DNA from: a virus | Strand: one strand, 5' to 3' | IMG/VR virus record: IMGVR_UViG_3300021376_000371 | Span: 1 to 23,026 of that record | DNA: 23,026 nucleotides | Part shown: positions 4,517 through 21,315 of the stretch, piece after piece | Numbering within the stretch: the first letter of the stretch is position 1 | Layout: each line of letters starts with the position of its first letter | The notes under the pieces: model-generated | Databases searched by the model: none | Told to the model about the DNA's origin: nothing | The model's input: the letters and a program-made list of their open reading frames with translations, nothing else | Made by a program: the position numbers and the translations under genes

Positions 4517-5764
4517 GTGAAACTTCGTTCCCACCAAATTCGTTCTCTTGATGCTCTTCGCAATGCATACAAGGGTACTCTCTACATTCCTACTGGTGGT
4601 GGTAAGTCGCTGGTTATCTTTCTTGACATGATTTGTCGCATGTCACAGTCCGTCTCTCCGATGGTTACTGTGATTGTTGCACCCCGTATTCTGCTTGCTT
4701 CTCAACTCTGTAGTGAGTTTGATGAAGTCAACACCGTTGATTCTGTGAAGTATCTCCACGTTCACACTGGAGAAACTCATTTCACCAAGACCACCAACTC
4801 GGATAAAATCAACTCCGAGTTTCGTCTGTGTCAAGAAAACAACCAACATCTTATTATCTTCACCACCTATAATTCTCTGCATCGCATTGTAGAGTCTGGT
4901 ATTGACATTGACGTTGTGTATTTCGATGAAGCACACAACTCTGTGAAGAAAAACTTCTTCACTTCGACTGCTATCATGTCGTTTATGTCTGATAAGTCGT
5001 TCTTTTTTACTGCAACTCCCAAGTATCATACCAATCCTCTTGCGAATGGTATGAACAATCATATGGTTTATGGTGAGAATCTGATCACTGTTTCTGCACC
5101 AGAACTGATTCAGAACGGTAGTATTCTCCCTGCAGAAATCTCTGCATTTGAGATTGACGATGTTCGTCGTAAGGATACTGCTGCGAAAACTGATTGTGAA
5201 ACGATTCTCAATATCGTAGACAATCTTCCTGACGAATCTTCCTCCAAGGTTCTTGTTGCTGCACCAAACACCAAGATTCTGTGGAACATGCTGTCTGGTT
5301 CTGCAATCATCCAAGAACTGCAGAATCGTGGATATGAGATTCTTCATATCACCTCCAAGCACGGTGCGTATGTAAATCGTAAAAAGGTCAGTCGTGAGGT
5401 GTTTTTTGACACTTTGACTACTTACGGTCGGAACAAACAAAAAAGGTTCATTTTGTTCCATTATTCGATCCTTTCTGAAGGGATTAACGTCCCTGGTTTG
5501 ACCCACTGCGTCCTCCTTCGCAATCTGAATGTGATTGAAATGGCGCAAACGATCGGTCGTGTGATTCGTCTGGATCGTGATGATGCATCTGATATTGCAT
5601 CTGGTAAAATTCCTGCTGGTGCTTTGCATATGTACCGTAAATCTGCAGGTTTTGTCACGGTTCCTGTATATCAGAACAGTGGTAAAGATACCATCAATCG
5701 TCTCAAGAATGTGTTTCGTACCATTTTTGTTGATGGAGACCCAGTTCATTCTTACTCTCGTTGA
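4517..5764 (+). CDS. SF2 DEAH-box helicase (415 aa)
   Basis: All core SF2 motifs are present: a Q-like RSHQIRSLDAL at 4-14, Walker A PTGGGKS at 25-31, Ia VIVAPRILLASQ near 53, DEAH at 137-140, TATP at 165-168, motif V SEGINVPG near 320 and motif VI QTIGRVIRLDR at 344-354. This gives an ATP-dependent DNA or RNA translocase of the type III restriction-helicase/UvsW-like branch, with no added nuclease or recognition domain. Family members in T4-type phages act in recombination and fork processing. The start is GTG 4517; no strong Shine-Dalgarno is visible. Expression is probably early from the promoter in the preceding terminator. Confidence 0.9.
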   Translation: MKLRSHQIRSLDALRNAYKGTLYIPTGGGKSLVIFLDMICRMSQSVSPMVTVIVAPRILLASQLCSEFDEVNTVDSVKYLHVHTGETHFTKTTNSDKINSEFRLCQENNQHLIIFTTYNSLHRIVESGIDIDVVYFDEAHNSVKKNFFTSTAIMSFMSDKSFFFTATPKYHTNPLANGMNNHMVYGENLITVSAPELIQNGSILPAEISAFEIDDVRRKDTAAKTDCETILNIVDNLPDESSSKVLVAAPNTKILWNMLSGSAIIQELQNRGYEILHITSKHGAYVNRKKVSREVFFDTLTTYGRNKQKRFILFHYSILSEGINVPGLTHCVLLRNLNVIEMAQTIGRVIRLDRDDASDIASGKIPAGALHMYRKSAGFVTVPVYQNSGKDTINRLKNVFRTIFVDGDPVHSYSR

Positions 5765-16405: not shown

Positions 16406-16563
16406 ATTTTACACAAGAACAATACAAACTGATGTACACTGCAGTACGCAGGTATCAGTATGACAAAACTGCATTGAACGGAACTGACTATTGGAACTGT
16501 TCTGAGATTCTGGATCAATTGTTTGATTCTGTTTATACTCAAAGACAGGAACAACAAACATGA
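16402..16563 (+). CDS. Small helical protein (53 aa)
   Basis: MNFTQEQYKLMYTAVRRYQY, DKTALNGTDYWNCSEILDQL, then LFDSVYTQRQ. The QY.L.Y.AVR.YQ...........Y..C..ILD.LF pattern is one I recognise in short cyanophage proteins. ATGA overlap with the preceding gene. Function unknown. Confidence 0.85.
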   Translation: MNFTQEQYKLMYTAVRRYQYDKTALNGTDYWNCSEILDQLFDSVYTQRQEQQT

Positions 16564-16575
16564 AGAAATCTATAG

Positions 16576-16608
16576 ATGTGTGGATTTTCGCACATTCCGT
16601 GTTATAAT
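16576..16608 (+). promoter_or_regulatory. Hairpin plus extended -10 promoter
   Basis: TGTTATAAT at 16600-16608 is an extended -10 (TGn followed by a consensus TATAAT). The normal -35 position is instead occupied by a hairpin, ATGTG (16576-16580) with CACAT (16591-16595). A second hairpin GCGGA/TCCGC at 16628-16642 lies in the leader of the 16654 gene. Confidence 0.65.
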
Positions 16609-16653
16609 GAACAATGTAAACATTAGTGCGGAGAAATTCCGCGAAACTTCCGC

Positions 16654-16830
16654 ATGAATGACCACGAATGGAATGAATTGAATCGTATGCACCGCGAAAT
16701 CACCTTAAGTGGTATACCTGCATTTGATACCAAGTATCTCGAACAGTATACAGAACTGTTGACCAAATCTCTACAAGGCAAAGGAGACATGTCTCCAGGA
16801 GACACAGATATTCCAATGGAAAAACCATGA
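16654..16830 (+). CDS. Hypothetical small protein (58 aa)
   Basis: The ATG at 16654 is the first after the promoter and leader hairpin. MNDHEWNELNRMHREITLSG is followed by IPAFDTKYLEQYTELLTKSL and a Pro/Gly tail. The leader hairpin ends 11 bases before the start and may affect ribosome access. No family recognised. Confidence 0.7.
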   Translation: MNDHEWNELNRMHREITLSGIPAFDTKYLEQYTELLTKSLQGKGDMSPGDTDIPMEKP

Positions 16831-16964
16831 TACTATCTTTGTTTAAATGGTTTATAAAACCATCTGATAAACCGATTTTTAAAGAACATAATTTATATGA
16901 TAAAATTGTAGAGTTAGAACACCGCATTGAACAATTAGAACATGAACGACAAACTGATGACTGA
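16827..16964 (+). CDS. Small amphipathic/coiled-coil protein (45 aa)
   Basis: The first ten residues (MILSLFKWFI) are an amphipathic or membrane-surface helix, and residues 23-43 form an acidic heptad helix (YDKIVELEHRIEQLEHERQT). ATGA overlap with the previous gene. A membrane-peripheral role is inference. Confidence 0.65.
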   Translation: MILSLFKWFIKPSDKPIFKEHNLYDKIVELEHRIEQLEHERQTDD

Positions 16965-17722: not shown

Positions 17723-17919
17723 GTGAACGTGCCCAACAGTTAATGGATGCAGTATGGGACGCACGACAGAATGGTGCGGATACTGAAACAAAACTTGTTG
17801 CTGCTATTCTAAGACTTGCATCTGACGCCGTGAGGTGTTATACTGCACAGAACGGTATAGAAGTCCTAGACCGTCAAGACCTCATTAACATTACATACGA
17901 ATTAACTGAACTCAAATGA
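17719..17919 (+). CDS. Conserved small cyanophage protein (66 aa)
   Basis: MSERAQQLMDAVWDARQNGA, DTETKLVAAILRLASDAVRC and YTAQNGIEVLDRQDLI match a family pattern (A..I.DAVWEARENGADTE.KLVAA) I recognise from cyanophages. It is fully helical with no motif. ATGA overlaps on both sides. Confidence 0.85.
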   Translation: MSERAQQLMDAVWDARQNGADTETKLVAAILRLASDAVRCYTAQNGIEVLDRQDLINITYELTELK

Positions 17920-19394
17920 CAATTACACTCAAGGATATGCAATCAATGAAGAACACGGATCCATATCGTGACTTTCTTACTACTCCTTTTTGTCTGGAGA
18001 TTTACGATCCAAAGTTTTATGATCGTAGACATACCATGACTATTTTTGTTGGTAAAATGGGTCAAGGTAAAACTCATGCATACACCAACAGTTTCCTTCG
18101 TACACTGATTGATCTTCCCAACAATGAAGGTCCTCAATTGTTGATGTATTCTGTACCAGAAACGTCTAGTTTTGAACACGATAAGTTCGAACAGGCGTGT
18201 GATCATCTGAGTCAGACTCTTGGTAAAACAATTAAGTATGTCACCACTATGGAAAGAACTGGCAATCTGAAAAGTCAGTTGCGTAAAATTGAGAAACAGT
18301 ACCTTGCAAAAGGTTATATTGTGGTGTATTCCATGACAAATGCGGCAATCACGAGTGATGCGACGAGAGATTTCGTCAATCGACTGATGGTTGATGATAT
18401 CAAGATTTCTGTTATGGTAGACGAATCTCATACTTGGTTGTGTTCGTGTCAGGAGAATTACAATTTGGTGACTGGTAATAGTGGTACAAGATCTTATGAA
18501 GCTAAATTGTTTGAATTCTGTGCTCATATTGCTAAAAAGAGTCCGTTCGTGTTCGGTATGACTGCAACAGCTAATCGTGAACAACGTGGTGAAATTCGTC
18601 CTGCCGAAGGACTGTCATTCAAAATTGCCAATAAAATGTGTCCGAAAAAGAATCTTCTTACACGAAATGGATGGATTAGTTCTTTCAACCTGTATGATGT
18701 CAAACACACAGGTCTCATTCTAAAAGAGTTTGTCAAACATCATCAAAATTCAATTGAGGAATCAAACACTAAAAAGTGTGCAATGATTAGTTGTGCCGCT
18801 CGTATTGACACTCCTAGATCTAATCCTTGGACACTAGAGGTTATGCATGAACAACTGCGTCAGGATTTGATTCAATATGCAAATTATGATATGGATGATC
18901 ATGTGATTGCAATCTTGAATAAAGATGGTTGTAAAACTTTTACTTTGAATGGTGATGGAGAGAGAATCACTGAAGATGAACTCAAAGAACGAATGAAAGA
19001 TCCAACAGATCCTTTACATTATTTGCTTGTTGTATACAAGGGAGTATGTGGAACTGATATTTCTTCCTTAAGTCATTACATGTCTGTACATGCAAAAAAC
19101 AAAAAAACATCAGATCAGGTACACATCACAGTTGGTAACATTCAACGCCTAGGTCGATTTGTTCGTGCTAATCTGAATAGTGACATCTATGATGGATATA
19201 CACTTGAACAGTACATCAATAAGTATCATACCAATGAAGAAATGATGGAACAACTTATCATTGATAATTCATTCCATGCATGGATGCCAGACACTGATAC
19301 TAATCATGTCGTTAAACAACTATTTGAAGATGAGTATGCAAATAGTGTAGAAGATGCAAGAGAGTATATCCGTCAACTACCAGTTGTAAGGTGA
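17916..19394 (+). CDS. SF2 helicase-like ATPase (492 aa)
   Basis: Walker A GKMGQGKT at 46-53, a Walker B/motif II DESH at 169-172, motif III TAT at 216-218, a motif V-like GVCGTDISSLSHYMS near 376 and motif VI QRLGRFVR at 410-417 define an SF2 NTPase. The DESH instead of DEAH/DEAD is a variant. The last 75 residues are an extra helical/acidic domain. The protein is much longer than its neighbours and differs from helicase 1 in every loop, so it is not a duplicate. A role in DNA or RNA unwinding is inferred. It is coupled to its neighbours by ATGA and GTGA overlaps. Confidence 0.9.
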   Translation: MTITLKDMQSMKNTDPYRDFLTTPFCLEIYDPKFYDRRHTMTIFVGKMGQGKTHAYTNSFLRTLIDLPNNEGPQLLMYSVPETSSFEHDKFEQACDHLSQTLGKTIKYVTTMERTGNLKSQLRKIEKQYLAKGYIVVYSMTNAAITSDATRDFVNRLMVDDIKISVMVDESHTWLCSCQENYNLVTGNSGTRSYEAKLFEFCAHIAKKSPFVFGMTATANREQRGEIRPAEGLSFKIANKMCPKKNLLTRNGWISSFNLYDVKHTGLILKEFVKHHQNSIEESNTKKCAMISCAARIDTPRSNPWTLEVMHEQLRQDLIQYANYDMDDHVIAILNKDGCKTFTLNGDGERITEDELKERMKDPTDPLHYLLVVYKGVCGTDISSLSHYMSVHAKNKKTSDQVHITVGNIQRLGRFVRANLNSDIYDGYTLEQYINKYHTNEEMMEQLIIDNSFHAWMPDTDTNHVVKQLFEDEYANSVEDAREYIRQLPVVR

Positions 19395-19852
19395 AAGAGT
19401 TTAATTATGCCCTGGACTATAAAGTTCTGGACTTCACACTTACGGAGAATCGCCATCTTTATCGCATTGGAAGGGGTGAACAAGGAGTTCTACTGGTTCG
19501 CCCTTATACAAACGATATTTGTGCTCACTGGAGATTTGTAAATGAAGAAACTGCTCGTCATTCTGCTGATACAATTTACGCCATGTTTTGTGATTATAAA
19601 CGGAGGAAAGATTTCATTGGTATGGACATGGCGAGGAAATTCTTGGAGATGGGTTTTACAAGAGCAAGACGCTATGCCAATCATTCCAGTGGTCAGAAAT
19701 ATAATCTTCAAGGAGAGATTCTTCCACAGGAAACAGATTGTCTCACTAATGAGAAAGCAAAGGCAGCTAGAGTGTTTAAAAAAGTGAGAGATACTGCCGC
19801 ATATGATCCAGAGTATGTTATAATGAGAAAACAATGGAGAGCAGCAGAATGA
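19391..19852 (+). CDS. DUF4385 family protein (153 aa)
   Basis: The GTG at 19391 overlaps the helicase stop as GTGA. The blocks YRIGRGEQGVLLVRPYTNDI, CAHWRFVNEETARHSADTIY, then DFIGMDMARKFLEMGFTRAR and RYANHSSGQKY are the DUF4385 signature found in T4-type cyanophages and some bacteria. The domain's biochemical activity is unknown to me. Its placement directly after a helicase may be a functional link. Confidence 0.9.
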   Translation: MKEFNYALDYKVLDFTLTENRHLYRIGRGEQGVLLVRPYTNDICAHWRFVNEETARHSADTIYAMFCDYKRRKDFIGMDMARKFLEMGFTRARRYANHSSGQKYNLQGEILPQETDCLTNEKAKAARVFKKVRDTAAYDPEYVIMRKQWRAAE

Positions 19853-20019
19853 CTGAAAAGGATAAAATCTTTCGTGATGTTTGGTGCTGTGCCTATCAAC
19901 GAAGATATCGTGCCATGGTTAAAAAAGATTGGGAATTATATCGTCGTGAGCATGATACAATATTGATGTGCCTTGGTATAGCGAAGTGGGTAACATTTGA
20001 AGAGGATATGAAGAAATAA
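19849..20019 (+). CDS. Small Cys/Trp-containing protein (56 aa)
   Basis: ATG 19849 in an ATGA overlap gives MTEKDKIFRDVWCCAYQRRY, RAMVKKDWELYRREHDTILM and CLGIAKWVTFEEDMKK, a basic helix pair with a CC motif. Last gene before the 560-base gene-free region. No terminator is obvious after it. Function unknown. Confidence 0.75.
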   Translation: MTEKDKIFRDVWCCAYQRRYRAMVKKDWELYRREHDTILMCLGIAKWVTFEEDMKK

Positions 20020-20048
20020 TTTAGAGTTGCGGAGTTTTTTCACAATCC

Positions 20049-20066
20049 TGTGGATTTTGTGGAAAA
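20049..20066 (-). promoter_or_regulatory. Two abutting DnaA-box-like 9-mers
   Basis: On the minus strand 20058-20066 reads TTTTCCACA, which equals the cyanobacterial (Synechococcus) DnaA-box consensus as I recall it. The adjoining 20049-20057 reads AAATCCACA, matching TTATCCACA at 7 of 9 positions. Head-to-tail boxes with no spacing beside AT-rich repeats are origin-like, but a chance pair is possible. CACAATCC with GGATTTTGTG can also form a hairpin here. Confidence 0.4.
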
Positions 20067-20122
20067 CTTTAAAAGATTAAAAAAAAGATAAGTGAGAGAA
20101 AAATATGGATTAAAAAAAGTTG

Positions 20123-20130
20123 TATAAATA
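20123..20130 (+). promoter_or_regulatory. T4-type late promoter box TATAAATA
   Basis: An exact late box with no gene for over 400 bases downstream. The first thing it would transcribe is the hairpin-rich stretch at 20150-20240, so it may drive a non-coding RNA or an origin primer transcript. Confidence 0.55.
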
Positions 20131-20152
20131 TGCGATTATTATTGATTACTAC

Positions 20153-20245
20153 GGAAATATCTCTAAAGGTACGGAGGGCGTACAAGGTAAGCGAGTCTAC
20201 CATGGATCGAACGGCTTGTCAACCCCTCTGGCCATACCATATTCT
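20153..20245 (+). ncRNA. Candidate structured RNA
   Basis: GTACG (20169-20173) pairs perfectly with CGTAC (20179-20183) around GAGGG, and GGTA with TACC immediately after (20186-20201). In an alternative fold GAGGG (20174-20178) pairs with CCCTC (20224-20228) and ACAAG (20182-20186) with CTTGT (20215-20219). The stretch is more GC-rich than its surroundings and lies 25-115 bases downstream of a late box. It has no tRNA T-loop geometry and no riboswitch I recognise. Confidence 0.3.
20194..20222 (-). promoter_or_regulatory. Candidate minus-strand promoter
   Basis: On the minus strand TTGACA (20217-20222) is followed after 17 bases by TAGACT (20194-20199). It would transcribe leftward across the late box and the DnaA-like boxes, antisense to the candidate RNA. 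The -10 is only 4/6. Confidence 0.3.
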
Positions 20246-20426
20246 GAAACCCTCAAAATCAGAAAAACAGTAAAATATTATTAATTATTAACTATTACCT
20301 TACTACCCCTCGGAAATTCTGAAAAACACTCAAAATAGTAACTTTTTTAAATGATTTTACTAGGGTTCTCATTACTAAATTATTATTATACATATGCGTA
20401 TTATTGATTATTATTCATTAACCCTC

Positions 20427-20450
20427 AGAGTGGCCTTGACAAAGGCCTCT
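20427..20450 (+). other. Hairpin with promoter -35 in its loop
   Basis: AGAG-T-GGCC at 20427-20435 pairs with GGCCTCT at 20444-20450 (one bulged T), leaving TTGACAAA as the loop. There is no T-run, so it is not an obvious terminator. Confidence 0.65.
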
Positions 20451-20465
20451 AGAATCGAGTATGAT
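20436..20465 (+). promoter_or_regulatory. Sigma70-like promoter P1
   Basis: TTGACA at 20436-20441, 18 bases, then TATGAT at 20460-20465. The -35 forms the loop of the 20427 hairpin. It is the upstream of two tandem promoters for the gene at 20581. Confidence 0.65.
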
Positions 20466-20495
20466 GGCTCTGTCAAGGATCAAAGGTTGCTTAGA

Positions 20496-20522
20496 GGCCT
20501 TATTATTAATTATTAATAAGCC
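20496..20522 (+). other. AT-rich hairpin between tandem promoters
   Basis: GGC (20496-20498) and TTATTA (20500-20505) pair with TAATAA (20514-20519) and GCC (20520-20522), with one bulge and an 8-base loop. It lies 2 bases before the P2 -35. Confidence 0.5.
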
Positions 20523-20524
20523 AC

Positions 20525-20553
20525 TTGACAATCCCTCCGAGACCCTGTATTAT
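20525..20553 (+). promoter_or_regulatory. Sigma70-like promoter P2
   Basis: TTGACA at 20525-20530, 17 bases, then TATTAT at 20548-20553, 27 bases before ATG 20581. It rules out the longer ORF that runs in frame from 20461. Confidence 0.7.
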
Positions 20554-20580
20554 TATTATTGTTCACTAAAGAACTTACCA

Positions 20581-20877
20581 ATGGAAAAAAGCTATTCTGA
20601 TCCTCGCTTCTATGTTGAATGTGATGATACTTCATCGGCCATTTCGATGGTTGGCCTTGACGTAGATAATGAAGTTATTATGATTCAATACGTTCAGAAC
20701 AATACTAGTGAAGATCAACCTGATAAAAAATATTATTATACATGTAATGACTTCAATAAAGCAAAACTGGCCGTTATGGAACATTATTATCTTTATGATG
20801 AGAACAATGTGAAGTCCAGTGGTCGTTTTATTAATAATCTTAAAAGGGATCTAGAATTTACACAGATTGACTACTAA
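20581..20877 (+). CDS. KTSC-domain-like protein (98 aa)
   Basis: The start at ATG 20581 follows promoter P2; an in-frame ATG at 20461 lies upstream of it and encodes promoter and hairpin sequence. The order SSAISMVGLDVDNEVIMIQY, KYYYTCNDFNKAKLAVMEHY, then VKSSGRFINNLKRDLEF parallels the KTSC domain (SsxIxxvGYD...L.V.F...YrY..V.......A.S.GkyFn..Ir), with an insertion in the middle. KTSC domains occur at the ends of lysyl-tRNA synthetases and as stand-alone phage proteins; function is unclear. Confidence in the family is moderate. Confidence 0.85.
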   Translation: MEKSYSDPRFYVECDDTSSAISMVGLDVDNEVIMIQYVQNNTSEDQPDKKYYYTCNDFNKAKLAVMEHYYLYDENNVKSSGRFINNLKRDLEFTQIDY

Positions 20878-21256: not shown

Positions 21257-21284
21257 CCCCTTGACAAATCAGTCAGGGGGTTTT
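21257..21284 (+). terminator. Intrinsic terminator with a promoter -35 in its stem
   Basis: CCCCT-T-GAC (21257-21265, one bulged T) pairs with GTCAGGGG (21272-21279) around a 6-base loop AAATCA, followed by GTTTTAT. The 5' stem contributes most of the TTGACA of the next promoter. Confidence 0.85.
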
Positions 21285-21289
21285 ATATT
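21261..21289 (+). promoter_or_regulatory. Strong sigma70-like promoter inside a terminator
   Basis: TTGACA at 21261-21266, 17 bases, then TATATT at 21284-21289. The -35 overlaps the terminator stem and loop and the T-run ends in the -10. It drives the GC-richer block from 21316. Confidence 0.8.
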
Positions 21290-21315
21290 GGCCAAGTTAC
21301 CACCGATTTAAACCG

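Follow-up and report, generated by a model that had tools for sequence, protein, structure and literature searches.

A gap near the end of a phage window

Does the gap at positions 20020-20580 of a 23-kb virus record hold a site from which a phage starts its replication, and would the DnaA initiator of the host act there? A sequence-only reading had proposed a replication origin or regulatory centre at this locus and hinted at the use of the host initiator. A search of the literature turned up no mapped replication origins of T4-like cyanophages, the only statement that we can cite being the prediction of a single theta origin in the cyanomyovirus Syn9 (PMC2984593). The window, by which we mean the whole stretch of DNA that was analysed (23,026 nucleotides), points by its genes to a T4-like cyanophage: it encodes a tail-fibre-like protein, helicases and numerous small ORFs, and its plausible genes are carried on the + strand. 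DNA matches were obtained to S-SRM01, S-PM2, Bellamy and S-SM2; the gene order is approximately that of a stretch of S-SRM01 (tail fibre, DEAD/DEAH helicase, small ORFs), and many of the small ORFs resemble those of S-PM2. The window encodes two different helicase-like proteins within 23 kb (4517-5764 and 17916-19394), the second of which matches DEAD only weakly and falls close to no known family. Farther along, the single-cell marine virus AG-345-O18 has the very same 36 bases around an early-type promoter (21257-21292, promoter at 21261).

The gap had been described as the only long one, which holds with some ORF cut-offs; at a cut-off of at least 60 aa there is a second gap (16406-16941), and at a cut-off of at least 50 aa small ORFs cover 20020-20580 too. 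Direct DNA comparison of the gap with phage records gave no meaningful match, and the 98-aa ORF that follows it had no convincing relative in the searches made. Following synteny outward from the upstream gene, and likewise from DUF4385, was abandoned, as the gap is not syntenic in either neighbourhood. In locus L007 (1781-2500) a long gap rich in short repeats (CTTCGAGATTCGCATAGGTCTCATAGTTA and similar) and in sigma-70-like promoters comes after a relative of the upstream gene.

All elements named in the sequence-only reading (boxes, repeats, a late box and two promoters) are present at their positions, and the left end of the gap reads TTTTTCACA-ATCC-TGTGGATTT-TGTGGAAAA (Table 1).

Table 1. 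Features in and around the gap, in window coordinates
Feature	Position	Strand	Remark
Upstream small gene	19834..20019	+	Stop codon 16-17 nt before the box pair
Inverted DnaA-box pair, TTTTTCACA-N13-TGTGGAAAACT	20036..20068	.	17/18 to TTTTCCACA / TGTGGAAAA; pair conserved in relatives
Left box, TTTTTCACA	20036-20044		One change from TTTTCCACA; opposite to both abutting 9-mers; absent from the sequence-only reading
Third box-like 9-mer, TGTGGATTT	20049..20057	+	Abuts the right box; 6/9 to TGTGGAAAA
Right box, TGTGGAAAA	20058-20066		Exact; opposite orientation to the left box
AT-rich, easily melted stretch beside the pair, unwinding-element candidate	20067..20130	.	Stability scan
T4-type late promoter box, TATAAATA	20123..20130	+	Motif match
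Repeat TATGCG(AT)TATTATTGATTA	20129, 20393		Copies differ by a 2-nt indel
Reverse sigma-70-like promoter, TTGACA-N17-TAGACT	20194..20222	-	-35 within GTCAACCCCTCT, common to relatives
Exact 16-nt repeat, TATTATTAATTATTAA	20276, 20501		ATT-type low-complexity sequence
Early-type promoter P1, TTGACA-N18-TATGAT	20436..20465	+	Promoter search
Early-type promoter P2, TTGACA-N17-TATTAT	20525..20553	+	About 27 bp before the next gene
Downstream ORF, 98 aa, no assigned function	20581..20877	+	ORF list

Taken singly, the boxes show no enrichment: the window has 11 near-matches to TTTTCCACA against 12.5 expected. Their arrangement is less easily reached by chance: none of 2000 Markov shuffles of the gap had three boxes, and none of 300 shuffled windows had an inverted pair at 17/18. 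The 16-nt repeat was reached by one of 500 gap shuffles, and no conserved copy of this ATT-rich sequence was found in relatives. The suggestion that the AT-rich repeats form an unwinding element thus did not hold up, the repeats being of low complexity and without conservation. What relatives do share is AT-richness in the ~50 bp immediately right of the pair, which corresponds to about 20067-20117 in the window; of all 100-bp stretches in the window, only two are less stable than the one starting at 20068. As for RNA, no Rfam family reached its gathering score, single-sequence folding of the gap's two palindromic parts made no case for a structured RNA (z -0.7 and -1.0), and no intrinsic terminator, that is a G+C-rich hairpin with a T run, was found in the gap.

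Around P1, three overlapping inverted repeats lie within 20432-20501 (GGCCTT/AAGGCC, CCTTGACA/TGTCAAGG and AAGGCCTCTA/TAGAGGCCTT), which could fold into alternative or pseudoknotted hairpins or act as operators covering the -35 box. The spacers of several early promoters in L157, L007 and the window (P1 and P2) carry CCTCTAGA or CCTCCGAGA-like words, and promoters of the form CTTGACA-N-CTCTAGA-N-TATAAT are present in many IMG/VR phages. The P1 pattern with its CTCTAGA spacer was dropped as a lead; its 69 matches lay in varied phages and the search was circular by construction.

A fixed-spacing box pair in T4-like cyanophages

P2 shares a 40-nt similarity with a promoter in contig L157, a T4-like cyanophage and the one contig returned by a scan with P2, whose gap has the same order of elements: stop codon, TTTTCCACA-N14-TGTGGAAAAC, AT-rich DNA, GTCAACCCCTC and a CTTGACA promoter. 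When IMG/VR was searched with the pattern TTTTYCACA-N6..22-TGTGGAAAACT, at least 120 stretches matched, compared with 7 for a scrambled-arm control (a palindrome of the same composition), so that it is the arm sequence that is conserved and not pairing alone. Although spacers of 6-22 were allowed, 107 of the 125 instances among the matches listed had one of 13-16, with a peak at 14-15, and homologues of T4-like cyanophage proteins were found at 108 of the 120 loci among the matches listed. The family form of the pair is TTTTCCACA-N14-TGTGGAAAA, inverted, of which the window's copy is a variant; its spacer length, 13, occurs in 5/125 instances among the matches listed.

Because this set had been chosen by its arms, we fetched a second one independently of them, namely the orthologous gaps reached through the downstream gp91 protein (29 after removal of redundancy). 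The pair was kept at 17-18/18 with a spacer of exactly 14 in 28 of the 29, while downstream control regions reached at most 15. The third 9-mer recurs as well: among 95 distinct spacers of relatives, 10 have a 9-mer of at least 7/9 abutting a box, against 0.36 expected from shuffles. No description of the pair was found in the open-access literature; subscription papers lie outside that scope and may hold one.

The family is not uniform. A spacer-20 class occurs in L205, L219, L227, L245 and L275, the spacer itself being near-palindromic (CAGTCTAATATAGATGACTG). Extra DnaA boxes, some in alternating orientation, lie within ~100-150 bp of the pair in L169, L197, L239, L230, L184 and L207, which are larger oriC-like clusters, and at several of these loci a late-like box, (T)ATAAATAG, stands alongside. 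An exact DnaA box stands 227-229 bp upstream of the pair in S-RIM50 (46364), S-RIM8 (41476), S-H25 (48183) and S-CAM22 (42049), ahead of the preceding small gene or close to its start. In S-PM2 (NC_006820.1, 17414-19333; L416 and L478) annotated tRNA coordinates overlap both CDSs and the pair; ARAGORN found no tRNA in L416 (17731-20764), and the tRNA positions of this record look shifted.

Copy number, place and anatomy of the module

Among 19 isolate genomes, 8 have the exact pair in one copy and 11 have none, and a reversed-pattern control gave 0. A copy with one mismatch in Syn19 brings the carriers to 9/19, again with one pair per genome, and leaves 10/19 isolates without. In S-RIM8 the pair stands at 41703, and in Syn9 at 52565. 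The carriers are 9 of 15 phages isolated on Synechococcus and 0 of 4 isolated on Prochlorococcus, numbers too small for a claim about hosts.

The place of the pair is likewise constant. With the baseplate gene gp6 identified by domain searches (PF21379/phrog_219), the pair lay upstream of it, at 2.3-9.0 kb, in 64 of the 64 IMG/VR loci with both, among the matches listed. Since in T4 the annotated oriE precedes gene 6 by 1.7 kb, the pair is in the oriE-equivalent place. The window ends 3 kb after its own pair, and gp6 would fall beyond that end.

The anatomy was examined in 62 non-redundant loci oriented to gp6, among the matches listed. The pair is mostly intergenic, lying outside ATG ORFs of at least 60 aa in 54/62, and a marked AT excess is confined to the first 50 bp on its right (+9% in the 62 relatives). 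Within 600 bp to the right, forward sigma-70 promoters occur in 48/62 loci, against 7 on the left, and late boxes in 12/62, with none on the same strand in neighbouring stretches; reverse sigma-70 promoters were found in 19/62 loci, against 1 in the next 600 bp. The window's gap holds the same set, from AT-rich flank and late box to reverse and forward promoters.

Is the window's copy, then, a true member? Taking the family as two inverted boxes at 17/18 or better with a spacer of 12-17, the window's pair falls within it at 17/18 and 13 nt, although outside the dominant spacer of 14-15, and it shares the intergenic place followed by AT-rich DNA and promoters. It is unlikely that the family-wide pair is genuine but the boxes of the window resemble it by accident, in a promoter region like any other. 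Such a likeness would account for the box mismatch and the 13-nt spacer, for a right flank that a profile of the relatives' right flank did not detect, and for downstream genes that differ from those of other modules. Conservation, which had been proposed as a check, was borne out for the boxes across the family but not for the window's nearest relatives: the pair was not found in the 23 contigs most like the window, many of which are fragments. Against chance stand the shuffled windows, the occurrence of spacer 13 elsewhere, and the position of the pair, which opens a gap where it has the usual company of an AT-rich flank, a late box, promoters in both directions and GTCAACCCC. We regard the window's copy as probably a true member.

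What binds the pair

TTTTCCACA is an experimentally supported cyanobacterial DnaA box, and DnaA of Cyanothece binds paired boxes (PMC4674748). We found the same pair in bacterial genomes, with a spacer peak at 14, and in 4 of the 16 inspected it lies upstream of dnaA, within ~0.7 kb of the part that encodes the DnaA domain; these genomes were hand-chosen among the scan matches, so that 4/16 is supportive and not a rate. Since the box is that of cyanobacterial DnaA and the same pair stands beside dnaA in bacteria, the phage pair is very probably bound by host DnaA. Comparison thus strongly supports the earlier hint at the host initiator, the boxes appearing to be a conserved, fixed-spacing DnaA-box pair in an oriE-like place.

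Inverted symmetry and fixed spacing would also fit a dimeric regulator, and a phage-encoded or other host protein might recognise the pair, its likeness to DnaA boxes being coincidental. This we consider improbable, given that both boxes equal the DnaA box of the host and that bacteria carry this pair beside dnaA with an identical spacer preference. Still less credible, and indeed very improbable, is an RNA hairpin or transcription terminator behind the upstream gene. The transcript does fold (z -2.1 to -4.7) and the pair is often close behind a stop codon, but a T run follows only 19 of 232 pair ends, and the scrambled-arm control indicates conservation of the arms beyond pairing. Moreover, the right box has become TGTGGAAAT in 10 of 28 orthologues, and the left box shows no compensating change; this speaks for a protein reading each box and against an RNA stem.

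An oriE-like origin and its main rival

The comparisons establish the elements, their conservation, the fixed spacing, the single copy per genome and the position; a DnaA-assisted, oriE-like origin fits because of position, single copy and anatomy. Judged from sequence, the left end of the gap would be a host-DnaA site heading an intergenic control module, with a phage origin of the oriE kind as its most likely role, a reading that we hold with moderate confidence. For the pair in general, an oriE-like origin is the best reading, unproven and with the chances about evenly balanced. In such an origin host DnaA would bind the pair early in infection and may help to melt the AT-rich DNA beside it; host RNA polymerase, starting from an early promoter there, would make the transcript that primes the T4-type replisome of the phage. 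The window's imperfect copy is presumed to work. More tentatively, and with a probability slightly short of even, T4-type cyanophages may start replication with host DnaA at a single conserved oriE-equivalent origin.

Several results count against an origin. The GC-skew check suggested by the sequence-only reading came out negative, with no inflection at the pair in seven genomes that have it, the pair is absent from ten isolates and from the 23 window-like contigs, and the window's own copy is imperfect. A dependence on DnaA is, to our knowledge, not known for T4-type replisomes, which we also count against it. T4 oriA and oriC likewise lie outside skew shifts (PMC3016281). The main rival to an origin is regulation or titration: host DnaA would bind the pair to regulate the nearby early and late promoters, or the pair would be a datA-like DnaA sink that stops host replication. 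Promoters on both strands and late boxes adjoin the pair, in E. coli DnaA acts as a gene regulator and is subject to titration (PMC11317965 and general knowledge), and the lack of a skew inflection is in keeping with such a role. We nevertheless judge it rather unlikely, as the forward promoters are a few hundred bp from the pair, which exceeds the usual range of direct control, a single pair in each genome offers little capacity for titration, and titration leaves the fixed place matching T4 oriE unexplained.

Likeness to known origins

Among the known sites that draw in or sequester host DnaA are P1 oriR and pSC101, from plasmids and temperate phages, and datA; such sites work with a plasmid-encoded initiator and iterons, or in regulation only, and we know of none in a T4-type phage. 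T4 oriE has an early-mode promoter and conserved repeats without an assigned role (PMC3016281). Like the cyanophage module it lies upstream of gene 6 with an early-mode promoter and transcription in the antisense direction, and its conserved repeats, too, are suspected of binding an initiator. The two differ in that T4 has 12-nt direct iterons inside gene 5 together with repEA/repEB, whereas here a DnaA-box pair occupies an intergenic gap. We found no DnaA box in the T4 stretch at 76-90 kb, the repeats of the gap are unevenly spaced and so unlike the iterons of oriE, and no repEA/repEB was seen among the window's ORFs (ORF list).

T4 oriF and oriG combine a transcript with an unwinding element, and thus resemble the module in having a promoter and an A+T-rich element within a short region (PMC3016281). 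Unlike it, they have no known protein-binding boxes and depend on a MotA middle promoter; MotA is missing from cyanomyoviruses, which are thought to rely on early promoters of the host type (PMC2984593). With cyanobacterial oriC the module shares the 9-mer TTTTCCACA, several boxes and an AT-rich neighbour (PMC4674748). It differs in belonging to a lytic phage that encodes its own replisome, in not lying beside dnaN, and in having only one inverted pair with an occasional third box. It is conceivable, though we place it a little below an even chance, that a lytic phage with its own T4 replisome has, in the place of the T4 iterons, a DnaA-box pair resembling that of host oriC.

T4-like cyanophages are abundant marine viruses, and the pair gives them a precise origin candidate, once per genome and in a fixed place, as well as a motif that can serve as an annotation handle for many phage genomes. 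If the origin reading is true, the start of phage replication would be tied to the host's own replication control.
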